A stretch of DNA of 64,000 nt, taken from the IMG/VR virus record IMGVR_UViG_3300044633_003049, positions 62,001 through 126,000 of that record. One strand, 5' to 3'. A program made the position numbers and the translations under genes. Origin of the DNA: a virus. The stretch's first letter is position 1. The number at the start of each line of letters is the position of its first letter. Below are positions 58,320 to 61,829 of this stretch, piece after piece. The notes under the pieces were generated by a model. That model did no database searches. It was given only the letters and a program-made list of their open reading frames with translations, and was not told where the DNA came from.

Positions 58320-58846
58320 TATATGTTATTATCTCTTTGATTTATTAATGGTTCAATTGATGTTTTGAATGTTTCATCAAATTTCGCCAATTTTTCTAAC
58401 GCTGTTGCAACATTTTGTTCAAGTTTCAACATATCAGCATTAATATAAACACCACTTTCGGTTCCAGCGATAAAAACAAAGTTAATATCTTCATCTGGTA
58501 AATAACCATCCAATCTGATTTGGTCTTGGTTAATGGTCATCCCTGGGTCAAATTCTGCTATTTGTGAAACTTGTTGTTTGAAATTATCAATTAAACCTGA
58601 AATTGTAGTTTTTTGTGTTTCACTCAATGTCATGTCAGCTTGATCTGTAGATAATAACTTAACATCAACATTATTAATTACTGTAACGTCATTTTTTTGT
58701 TCTTGACTTGCATCATCAGATAATGTAGATTCGAACTCAGCAACCTCATTAATTGATTGTTTTGATATTTTAGATTCTGTTATAGACCTAATGGTCTTTA
58801 ACATATTCTTGGTTACATCATAATCTGTTTTCATTTTCATTTGCAT
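58319..58846 (-). CDS. Phage protein of unknown function (possible head-assembly)
   Basis: I start at the ATG at 58846 (175 residues); a longer reading from a TTG at 58864 is less likely. It has a mixed alpha/beta sequence: NMLKTIRSITESKISKQ, VTVINNVDVKLLSTDQADMT, FVFIAGTESGVYINADMLKL and EKLAKFDETFKTSIEPL. No family recognised. It has an exact TATTTATA site 42 bases upstream, inside the preceding gene. Confidence 0.5.
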   Translation of the reverse strand: MQMKMKTDYDVTKNMLKTIRSITESKISKQSINEVAEFESTLSDDASQEQKNDVTVINNVDVKLLSTDQADMTLSETQKTTISGLIDNFKQQVSQIAEFDPGMTINQDQIRLDGYLPDEDINFVFIAGTESGVYINADMLKLEQNVATALEKLAKFDETFKTSIEPLINQRDNNI

Positions 58847-59441
58847 AATTAAAAAAGACCCCAAAATTAAAAGAAGGGTTTATATCTGTATAAATACTTG
58901 AAAAGTTGGATTTACATACTATTCCTTTGAAATTAGATATGTTTTCTAAATATCCTTGGGACGGTACGGTTTGTTTTGGTATTTCGTGTTTATCACATAG
59001 GGAATCACATAGTTCAGATAGTGAATTCATTTGGATTTCAGTGTACTTATCCCAAAAATAGTAGTTTCTCCAATTACGTATATGGGGTTCTGACCTATAT
59101 GGGTCTCCAATCCAATTATTAAGGACACCAGTGATGGTGTTCTTATTCAACCAACCCAAGTTCTCAATTGCTATTTTAATCATCCTCTTATCGTTCTGTG
59201 AGTCATTAAACGTATTAGAACTATAGTTGGTATCAAACAATTGATATGTACTACCTAATTTTGTAACTATAAAATGTGGGATGTCATCAAACTTACCATT
59301 ATTACGATGTTCAATTTTATTAACAAAGTCGTCAAATCTTCTTTGTGTATCGTATAGGAATATTTGAGTTTTTTTAGATTTTCTTTTATTAATAATTAAA
59401 CTATTATAATCTATTTTTTCTATTTCGTGTATTACTAACAT
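58818..59441 (-). CDS. Amidase_2/T7-lysozyme-fold protein, probably degenerate at zinc ligands
   Basis: 207 residues. The outline fits N-acetylmuramoyl-L-alanine amidase_2: IPHFIVTKLGSTYQLFDTNY (like YHYVI...G-x-IYQL), KYTEIQMNSLSELCDSLCDK (like YT-x-AQ-x-x-x-L), and YTDINPSFNF at the end (like TDPGP-x-F). The first His of the usual H-x-(S/T) is not in place (QIFLYDTQR), and the third His before the DPG-like end is replaced (IVCKSNFSSIYTD). It is probably structural or regulatory rather than lytic, or has a shifted metal site. Its start overlaps the -1-frame extension of the next gene. Confidence 0.5.
   Translation of the reverse strand: MLVIHEIEKIDYNSLIINKRKSKKTQIFLYDTQRRFDDFVNKIEHRNNGKFDDIPHFIVTKLGSTYQLFDTNYSSNTFNDSQNDKRMIKIAIENLGWLNKNTITGVLNNWIGDPYRSEPHIRNWRNYYFWDKYTEIQMNSLSELCDSLCDKHEIPKQTVPSQGYLENISNFKGIVCKSNFSSIYTDINPSFNFGVFFNYANENENRL
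58889..58896 (-). promoter_or_regulatory. Putative phage late promoter octamer (TATTTATA), intragenic
   Basis: Reads GTATTTATACAGATA in gene direction, within the 3' end of the amidase-like gene, 42 bases ahead of the ATG at 58846. It would allow separate expression of 58319-58846 and genes after it. Confidence 0.4.
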
Positions 59442-59649
59442 TTTTCTTAATGAATTTAGGACCTAAATCAGTTAGTGGTGAGTTAAGAGTTATATCCTCA
59501 TTTGGTATTATAACCTTATTATTTTCCAAATCATATAGTACTTGGTTTGGATTTACGTCATCTTTTTCCCAATATAAATTATCAGAATCTTGAGATTCTA
59601 ACGTTGGGACGTTTTTTTCCGTTATTGGAATTTGGGGGTCTACTAATTT
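59404..59649 (-). CDS. Start-less -1-frame extension of the upstream membrane protein gene
   Basis: From 59649 to the TAA at 59404-59406 a frame encodes 81 residues (KLVDPQIPITEKNVPTLESQ..., then VLYDLENNKVIIPNEDI..., ending NTRNRKNRL) but has no ATG or GTG start near its beginning. It directly follows the slippery run GAAAAAAAAAATTAG at the end of 59643-61010. A -1 shift at the A-run gives a fused protein of about 535 residues. Composition and codon flow look like coding sequence. One more A in the run would have the same effect, so an assembly error is an alternative. Confidence 0.55.
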   Translation of the reverse strand, partial: KLVDPQIPITEKNVPTLESQDSDNLYWEKDDVNPNQVLYDLENNKVIIPNEDITLNSPLTDLGPKFIKKNVSNTRNRKNRL

Positions 59650-61010
59650 TTTTTTTCATCATTTTTTTCTAATGATGTGTCTTCTTCATTGTCGTAATGT
59701 AACCCTTCATTTCCATTCTGACCTATAATGTTCATTCTTTCGTCATCTTTAGGAATTTGACTTACTTTATAACCATTCTTTTTATGTTGTTCAATTGTTG
59801 TGAATATTTTATTATTTGCGGTTGTTGTTGGTTCTTCTTGTAAAATATTCTCTGTTTCAGGTTCTATAGTGGAAAAATTTCTTTTAATTTCTTCTTCAGT
59901 TGGTTCTTCTTGTAAAATTTTCTCCGTTTCTTCTTCAGTAAAGAATGGTTCTTCATCTTCTAAACCATCCATTAAAGTAACATCCCAATCTGATGTATCG
60001 TCATATAAACCTAATTCTTGGTCGTTCTTCATCATCTCCGCTAATAGTTCTCCACGTTTTTCACGTTCAATATCTGTCTTCATTTTATAATATTCGGCAG
60101 CAGATTTTAAATTGTCATTTGGTTTTGGTGGATTTAATAAAGTTTCTTCTAACTTCATTAAATCGTTTTCAGTTAAATGTAATCTTGTGGTTTCATCAAC
60201 AAAGTTTTTTAAATCTTCCGGAGACGATGGTTCTTTTTCATCCTCATCTTTCTTCTTACCTTCCATGGTTAATTGATTGAATGAAATAATTAACGCAACC
60301 GCCAATGGATCAAACACAATCACAATTAAAATTATAAAGAATTTAACAACAGAATTAAGTGGTACACCGAAAGATTCTGCTACAAAACGAAACCCCCCTA
60401 CTTCTTTTTCTAATTCAATATTATTATTTTTAATAACATTAATTGAATCTAATGATGCGTTGTTTTTTATTGTTAATTCATCAATTCTTTTTGAAATAGA
60501 ATTAATTTCTTTATCTGCGGATTTAATCATTTGAGACACTCTAGATGTTGATTTATCCTTATCAATTTGTTTGGTTAAATTTGTCTCTTGTGAATTACGA
60601 ATATTTTGTTGATTGTTTAATTGAGTGGTGTAACGAGATATTTCTAAATCATTTTTAGTAATTTGTGTTTGGTAAACTGCAATGTCTCTTTCAATTTTTT
60701 GTAATCCTAAATTTTGTTGTTGGAATGCATTTGAAAGATAACCGAAGATACCTGCAGATGTGATTAACATTAAAATAACAACGGAGGTGGTTAAATAAAT
60801 TTTACTAAGTAACTCTATTTTTTCCCACTTTTGTTTTAAATAAGTTGCGGTAACTAACTTTGCAAATTCTAATGAACTTGCCATAATCATAACGGCAATT
60901 GCAGCACCACTAAATAAAACACCAAGACCAGTTACTGAAAAATATGCAGCACTACCCGCAATCATAATAGCCGCCAGTGCAACCAAATACTTTAACCAAT
61001 TATTATTCAT
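59643..61010 (-). CDS. Phage membrane protein with coiled coil
   Basis: 455 residues in the zero frame. Three membrane spans near the N-terminus (about 6-24, 28-48 and 70-92: LVALAAIMIAGSAAYF, LFSGAAIAVMIMASSL, VVILMLITSAGIFGYL), a coiled coil (about 98-205), a fourth span (about 222-245: FFIILIVIVFDPLAVALIIS) and an acidic disordered tail. This layout recurs in T4-like marine phages; role unknown, perhaps inner-membrane remodelling or lysis control. It has a TATTTATA site 4 bases upstream. It ends in a frameshift-prone A-run. Confidence 0.7.
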   Translation of the reverse strand: MNNNWLKYLVALAAIMIAGSAAYFSVTGLGVLFSGAAIAVMIMASSLEFAKLVTATYLKQKWEKIELLSKIYLTTSVVILMLITSAGIFGYLSNAFQQQNLGLQKIERDIAVYQTQITKNDLEISRYTTQLNNQQNIRNSQETNLTKQIDKDKSTSRVSQMIKSADKEINSISKRIDELTIKNNASLDSINVIKNNNIELEKEVGGFRFVAESFGVPLNSVVKFFIILIVIVFDPLAVALIISFNQLTMEGKKKDEDEKEPSSPEDLKNFVDETTRLHLTENDLMKLEETLLNPPKPNDNLKSAAEYYKMKTDIEREKRGELLAEMMKNDQELGLYDDTSDWDVTLMDGLEDEEPFFTEEETEKILQEEPTEEEIKRNFSTIEPETENILQEEPTTTANNKIFTTIEQHKKNGYKVSQIPKDDERMNIIGQNGNEGLHYDNEEDTSLEKNDEKKN

Positions 61011-61013
61011 ACC

Positions 61014-61829
61014 TTATAAATAGTTTAAGAGACCAAAACTTTCGTTTCTTAGTTTCTTAATAGCCTTATCACGTAATTGTCTTATACGTTCTTTAGTACA
61101 ACCAAACTCCTCACCTAAATCTTCCAAGTTAGATTCTATACCCGTTAACCCATAATATCTTTCAATGATTATTTTTTCTCTATCATCCAACACACTTAAC
61201 ATTGCTGAAACTTTTTTCTTTATTTCTTCCGGTGAATTAAGAATGGCGTCAGGACTTTCAGCCTCTCTATTAGGTATAACATCAATTAATTGGTCACCAT
61301 CTTCATTAATTTCTTTATATAAACCAATACAGTATGGGAGATTAACACCGATTGGTGTTTCATCTTCAACATTGTTTATGAAGAAATTATCTTCTTCACT
61401 TATTTCAATTTTCTTTTGTTTTTGAGCATCTTGTACTAAATTTGAAGGTATACGAATTGTTCTACAGTTTTCATTTAGAGATGCCATTATTGATTGTCTA
61501 ACCCACCACACCGCGTATGAAATAAATTTTAAACCAGTCGTCGGGTCAAATCTTTCCGCCGCTTTAATTAAACCAATATTACCTTCTGAAATAATGTCCA
61601 ACAAATCCATTCCCTGATTTTGAAACATTTTAGCCACAGATATTACAAATCTTAAATTACCAACAACCAATTCATTATAAAGTTTTCCTCTAGTTTCTTT
61701 ATCTGTTTTTTTATTGTTTAATAATTCAAAAACTTCTTCCTGTCTTTGATGTGACATTACAGGAATTTTTCGTAAATCTTTGATATACAATTGAATCTCG
61801 TCTGGATTAACTAAAATGGATTTTTTCAT
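61014..61829 (-). CDS. RNA polymerase sigma-70 family factor
   Basis: 271 residues. Region 1.2 (YIKDLRKIPVMSHQRQEEVF), region 2 (GNLRFVISVAKMFQNQGMDL, then DIISEGNIGLIKAAERFD, KFISYAVWWVRQSI), a shortened region 3, and region 4 (LDDREKIIIERYYGL, GCTKERIRQLRDKAIKKL with the helix-turn-helix). The pattern YAVWWVRQSI and NQGMDLLDLI resembles Bacteroidota RpoD. It is far more complete than T4 gp55. It is a natural candidate to read the TATTTATA sites. Confidence 0.9.
   Translation of the reverse strand: MKKSILVNPDEIQLYIKDLRKIPVMSHQRQEEVFELLNNKKTDKETRGKLYNELVVGNLRFVISVAKMFQNQGMDLLDIISEGNIGLIKAAERFDPTTGLKFISYAVWWVRQSIMASLNENCRTIRIPSNLVQDAQKQKKIEISEEDNFFINNVEDETPIGVNLPYCIGLYKEINEDGDQLIDVIPNREAESPDAILNSPEEIKKKVSAMLSVLDDREKIIIERYYGLTGIESNLEDLGEEFGCTKERIRQLRDKAIKKLRNESFGLLNYL
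61015..61022 (-). promoter_or_regulatory. Putative phage late promoter octamer (TATTTATA)
   Basis: Reads CTATTTATAAGGTATG in gene direction, 4 bases before the ATG at 61010 and overlapping the stop region of the sigma-factor gene. The spacing again suggests a leaderless mRNA, unless it is chance. Confidence 0.45.

Follow-up and report, generated by a model that had tools for sequence, protein, structure and literature searches.

A gene of an uncultured large phage almost certainly undergoes a programmed change of reading frame at a run of ten adenines, through which one gene would give two proteins: a 455-amino-acid form that stops after the run and a 535-amino-acid form with a conserved C-terminal tail. 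Sequence comparison shows the run, the tail frame and selection on the tail. RNA-polymerase slippage is favoured as the main cause, and the best explanation as a whole is probably a probabilistic frame change giving two proteins, mostly by polymerase slippage and with a possible ribosomal share. The window is the whole stretch of DNA that was analysed (64,000 nucleotides of a 211,784-bp viral record), and all coordinates are positions within it.

61014 to 61829, minus strand: upstream gene, a phage-encoded sigma-70-type factor
59643 to 61010, minus strand: the 0-frame gene, 455 amino acids, ending DEKKN-stop (tandem TAG TAG)
60090 to 60206, minus strand: linker segment resembling the C-terminal half of TacA/DUF1778 (Pfam PF08681, phmmer)
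59647 to 59656, minus strand: the A10 slippery run (T10 on the plus strand), preceded by G and followed by TTAG
59404 to 59655, minus strand: tail open reading frame in the -1 frame (KKK plus 80 amino acids), without a start codon and entered only via the run
59503 to 59577, minus strand: the most conserved tail motif, LYWEKDDVNPNQVLYDLENNKVIIP (tail alignment; AF2 model of the relative L024)
58818 to 59441, minus strand: next gene, Amidase_2 (endolysin-like; Pfam 4e-7), its ATG inside the end of the tail reading frame

At its 3′ end the 0-frame gene reads GAT GAA AAA AAA AAT TAG TAG, and the minus-strand context of the run is G-A10-TTAG-TAG. The original prediction of a gene ending on ten adenines was confirmed (ten T's at 59647-59656 on the plus strand), as was that of a -1 frame that lacks a start codon and stays open from the run as far as 59404 (the noted span, 59404-59660, comprises the extension and the run): read from 59655, this frame translates as KKKLVDPQ...RKNRL-stop, contains the peptide NVPTLESQDSDNLYWEK and has no ATG, GTG, TTG or CTG ahead of the conserved motif. 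Recomputation returned the same 535-residue fusion (454+1+80, the tail adding 81 residues) and the same 38 nt overlap between the tail reading frame and the amidase gene.

Relatives were collected by gene search, tail search and tail-alignment search, and 26 distinct sequences were scored; the close relatives are all metagenomic contigs, and neither the tail nor the gene was found in GTDB genomes. Ten or eleven A's stand directly before the tail in all 26 loci, and in 23 of them the tail lies in the -1 frame behind the run (the exceptions are L009, L024 and L097), counts that come from related and hence non-independent loci, with homopolymer lengths taken from assemblies. The 0-frame stop falls zero to one codon past the run in most loci. 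At the run the codon phase is GAA AAA AAA AAN; L043, which reads TTA AAA AAA AAA, still has ten A's. The tails align on a conserved motif, LYWEKDDxNPNQVIYDLENNxVIIP, ten diverse tails have 12 invariant columns, and a basic C-terminus is common to many members. The conservation of run, frame and tail strongly upholds the predicted access to the -1 frame; what it does not establish is the ribosome as the agent, as had been proposed, because the A-run equally permits slippage by RNA polymerase, which would give an 11-A mRNA.

Homopolymers are error-prone, and a miscounted run in a true 11-A gene with a single open reading frame would mimic a frame change. The locus L009 could be read in this way: L008, L010 and L102, which are related to it, have A11, but L009 has A10, and with one A fewer its tail would be reached by a +1 shift or by deletion of one base. 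However, exactly ten A's recur in assemblies made independently, from different metagenomes, of this phage and its relatives (L002, L005, L003/L004, L037/L038 and L006/L007), so the objection that the gene really has 11 A's fails, and with A10 or A11, whichever a locus has, the tail is almost always out of frame. When the 11-A form, GAYG-A11-TTAR, was scanned for, 11 contigs came up, none of them with the tail. An error has practically no chance of being the explanation, and for the window's own group it is refuted by the independent assemblies.

Long homopolymers also mutate fast, and L009, one A off its sisters, might equally recall phase variation, in which replication slippage would toggle the run between ON genomes (tail in frame) and OFF genomes. 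The ON length was found in none of the loci examined, unlike what is expected of a contingency locus, and the two mutually similar loci with an in-frame tail, L024 and L097, keep A10 and reach the tail through different sequence 3′ of the run rather than through its length; we consider phase variation very improbable. In L024 and L097 the +1 frame meets a stop at once after the run, so a polymerase that dropped one A would still yield the short form; there, the long form is possibly the default, with slippage giving the short one.

The in-frame fusion of the tail in these two loci also argues against a reading of the tail as an independent small gene with a start codon of its own. A TTG, GTG or ATG does occur within the tail of some relatives, but in ten of 19 loci, among them the window's group, the motif has no ATG, GTG, TTG or CTG ahead of it, and in none does the tail frame contain an ATG, GTG or TTG before the run. 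Internal initiation in the tail is ruled out by this start-codon survey, and a separate gene is extremely unlikely.

For most closely related pairs, dN/dS in the tail frame is 0.12-0.30, against about 0.4-1.5 in the other two frames, and substitutions in most close pairs fall mainly on third codon positions as read in the tail frame; the pair formed by the window and L006 departs from this (0.62, which is not below the values of its other two frames), and in distant pairs the comparison is saturated. Judged by its substitution pattern, the shifted-frame extension is conserved as a protein.

In the full 211,784-bp record, both strands counted, no other homopolymer reaches ten bases. In seven of 12 related records, too, neither strand has ten or more A's in a row anywhere but in the run of the tail gene, and the extra stretches inspected in other related records are intergenic or at a gene edge. 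Sense A-runs in genes were counted and compared with shuffles of third positions that keep amino acids, codon usage and 3-1 dinucleotides. A single run of at least ten A's was observed where 11.2 ± 2.5 were expected, seven of at least nine against 29, and 27 of at least eight against 62; the ratio of observed to expected is 0.93 for runs of at least six, 0.86 for at least seven, 0.44 for at least eight, 0.24 for at least nine and 0.09 for at least ten. AAG or GAG never occurs within the columns of the run, whereas 30 of the 37 other conserved K/E columns are mixed. The deficit of long A-runs, the lack of AAG and GAG in the run and the counts in related records together speak for selection that keeps the run unbroken over more than the seven bases that a ribosomal heptamer occupies.

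Three hallmarks of transcriptional slippage are present: an A/T run of about nine or more within a gene, its length kept among homologues (A10/A11, 26 loci), a shifted-frame extension that is conserved as protein, and under-representation of slippery runs in the genes of the genome. Polymerase would slip on the run to give a fraction of mRNAs with 11 (or 8) A's, which would be read into the tail. We infer polymerase as the slipping machine because a length of 10-11 A's is maintained whichever codon phase is used, long A-runs are avoided elsewhere in the genome and no consistent stimulator was seen: folding without pseudoknots gave no consistent downstream stem-loop (z scores were mixed), and no SD-like element was seen upstream near the run. 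A search for an RNA polymerase beta subunit encoded by the phage found none, and so the host polymerase is likely to transcribe the gene. A scan for the TTTG/TAnnTTTG promoter motif lent no support to the idea of a Bacteroidota host (four found, 4.1 expected).

Ranked second, and plausible though less probable than polymerase slippage, is programmed -1 ribosomal frameshifting or sliding on A-AAA-AAA or A-AAA-AAN, in which the mRNA stays A10. Every site offers one or two valid heptamers, and their position near the 0-frame stop in most loci also suits a ribosomal shift; L053, L055 and L056 have a dnaX-type A-AAA-AAG, and an identical G-A10-TTAR site occurs in tail-assembly-chaperone-like genes of other, unrelated phages. 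Seven A's would nevertheless be enough for a ribosome, yet all loci keep ten or eleven, whichever of the two codon phases they use, and no conserved stem-loop or SD-like element was seen. Such stimulators are common in -1 ribosomal frameshifting, but some known cases do without them. Ribosomes slide robustly on A11 in vitro, but only slightly on A9 or A10 (PMC4363877). Avoidance of A-runs could itself stem from ribosome sliding (PMC4363877) or from replication slippage. A ribosomal -1 slip on A-AAA-AAA may thus add to polymerase slippage or replace it.

Without translation of the tail, the gene and the amidase would lie 183-264 non-coding nt apart, in a genome that is about 95% coding. Wherever it was scored, the tail stop falls in a span from 38 nt past the amidase ATG (-38) to 21 nt short of it (+21), except in L042, where the tail stop lies -86 from an alternative upstream amidase ATG; the amidase motif pattern gave no match in L011 or L097, although L011 still reads into similar sequence. 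This conserved spacing suggests that slipped transcripts or ribosomes may help translation of the amidase. Translation of the tail would bring ribosomes over the gap of about 200 nt to the amidase start, and the slip fraction may thereby tune expression of the amidase, and with it lysis. We infer this coupling, as we do the ratio of the two products.

The N-terminal domain of the 455-amino-acid protein is probably of a membrane type, and is widely carried by named large phages of Stenotrophomonas, Xanthomonas, Pelagibacter, Microcystis and Flavobacterium. It has a long helical (coiled-coil-like) segment, with helices in the AF2 model of the relative L024, and is followed by an acidic, low-confidence linker. 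Two unlike N-terminal domains (MNNNWLKYL... and MKHWLNQNF...) precede a similar acidic linker, A-run and tail. The AF2 models are of low confidence (mean pLDDT 46 and 54), and in that of the in-frame L024 the tail motif (59503..59577(-) in the window) tentatively forms a short beta hairpin.

A sister subclade (L012, L014, L015, L019, L021, L025, L028 and L031-L033) has a different C-terminus, without the conserved tail, a point against the favoured explanation. Its members keep an in-frame A9-A11 run upstream of the stop, mostly by 340-390 nt, where a slip would truncate the protein early.

A stretch of the linker, residues 269-307, resembles the C-terminal portion of TacA/DUF1778 antitoxins, a portion seen in certain solved entries as a short chain. 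Scores above the gathering threshold of PF08681 were obtained for the window protein and for six relatives, and phmmer returned the solved DUF1778 chains 7zg5_C (E=3e-4), 7ak9_C and 6gtq_C. The likeness is confined to the C-terminal half of these antitoxins, since the PF08681 match covers just positions 36-79 or so of the 80 in the profile; the DNA-binding ribbon-helix-helix half is missing, and the window segment, unlike an antitoxin, sits inside a predicted membrane protein. The protein is accordingly not counted as an antitoxin, and no toxin gene was identified beside the gene at 61010..59643(-). As a guess from sequence resemblance, the segment might act as a decoy against GNAT toxins. A further, rather unlikely reading is that the A10 run serves as a ratio device tying the protein with the antitoxin-like segment to the amidase, in which the slipped fraction would set the share of tailed protein and, through translational coupling over the overlap, the amount of endolysin; polymerase slippage would then take part in setting lysis.

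Comparable behaviour, which also counts in favour of the polymerase, is known from the A9 run of Thermus dnaX, where slippage is transcriptional (PMC1088944), and from Shigella spa13 and mxiE, in which slippage extensions affect the next gene (review PMC5009743). As in these systems, the run in the window would give heterogeneous mRNA with short and long products, and the extension of spa13 likewise runs into the beginning of the following gene, whose expression it affects. The gene analysed here differs from them: it belongs to a phage, probably encodes a membrane domain, has an A10/A11 run and lies beside an amidase, and its slippage is putative.

The -1 frameshift of the phage tail-assembly-chaperone G/GT genes is similar in its short product and -1 tail, and chaperone-like genes carry the same G-A10-TTAR site. 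The window gene sits instead between a sigma factor and an amidase, and had no PHROG or Pfam match to the chaperone family, so it is not assigned to G/GT. A DNA scan of IMG/VR for GAYG-A10-TTAR (L126-L244) placed 90 of 119 sites in one tail-chaperone-like gene (e.g. L127:3-661, L163, L193 and L227), which has a long open -1 frame after the site; the -1 tail of L127 matches a PHROG tail assembly chaperone (3e-4). Less similar genes in the scan also have an open -1 frame.

The -1 ribosomal frameshift of Escherichia coli dnaX (A-AAA-AAG) shares with the window gene a slippery A-rich heptamer and a nearby stop. The dnaX shift gives a shorter product and uses an SD element and a stem-loop, whereas the shift in the window gene lengthens the product and no such signals were seen. 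The kind of recoding described here is already known, and the window gene appears to be a new user of it.

Overall, our work gives good support for the recoding of a gene of uncultured large phages that lies beyond the familiar tail-chaperone, capsid and transposase cases. The tail is dropped by standard gene calling, and comparisons of frame, selection and homopolymer avoidance can reveal recoding that annotation misses. The gene represents a clean, testable case for telling polymerase slippage from ribosomal slippage, and offers a hint of how an endolysin-like gene may be controlled.
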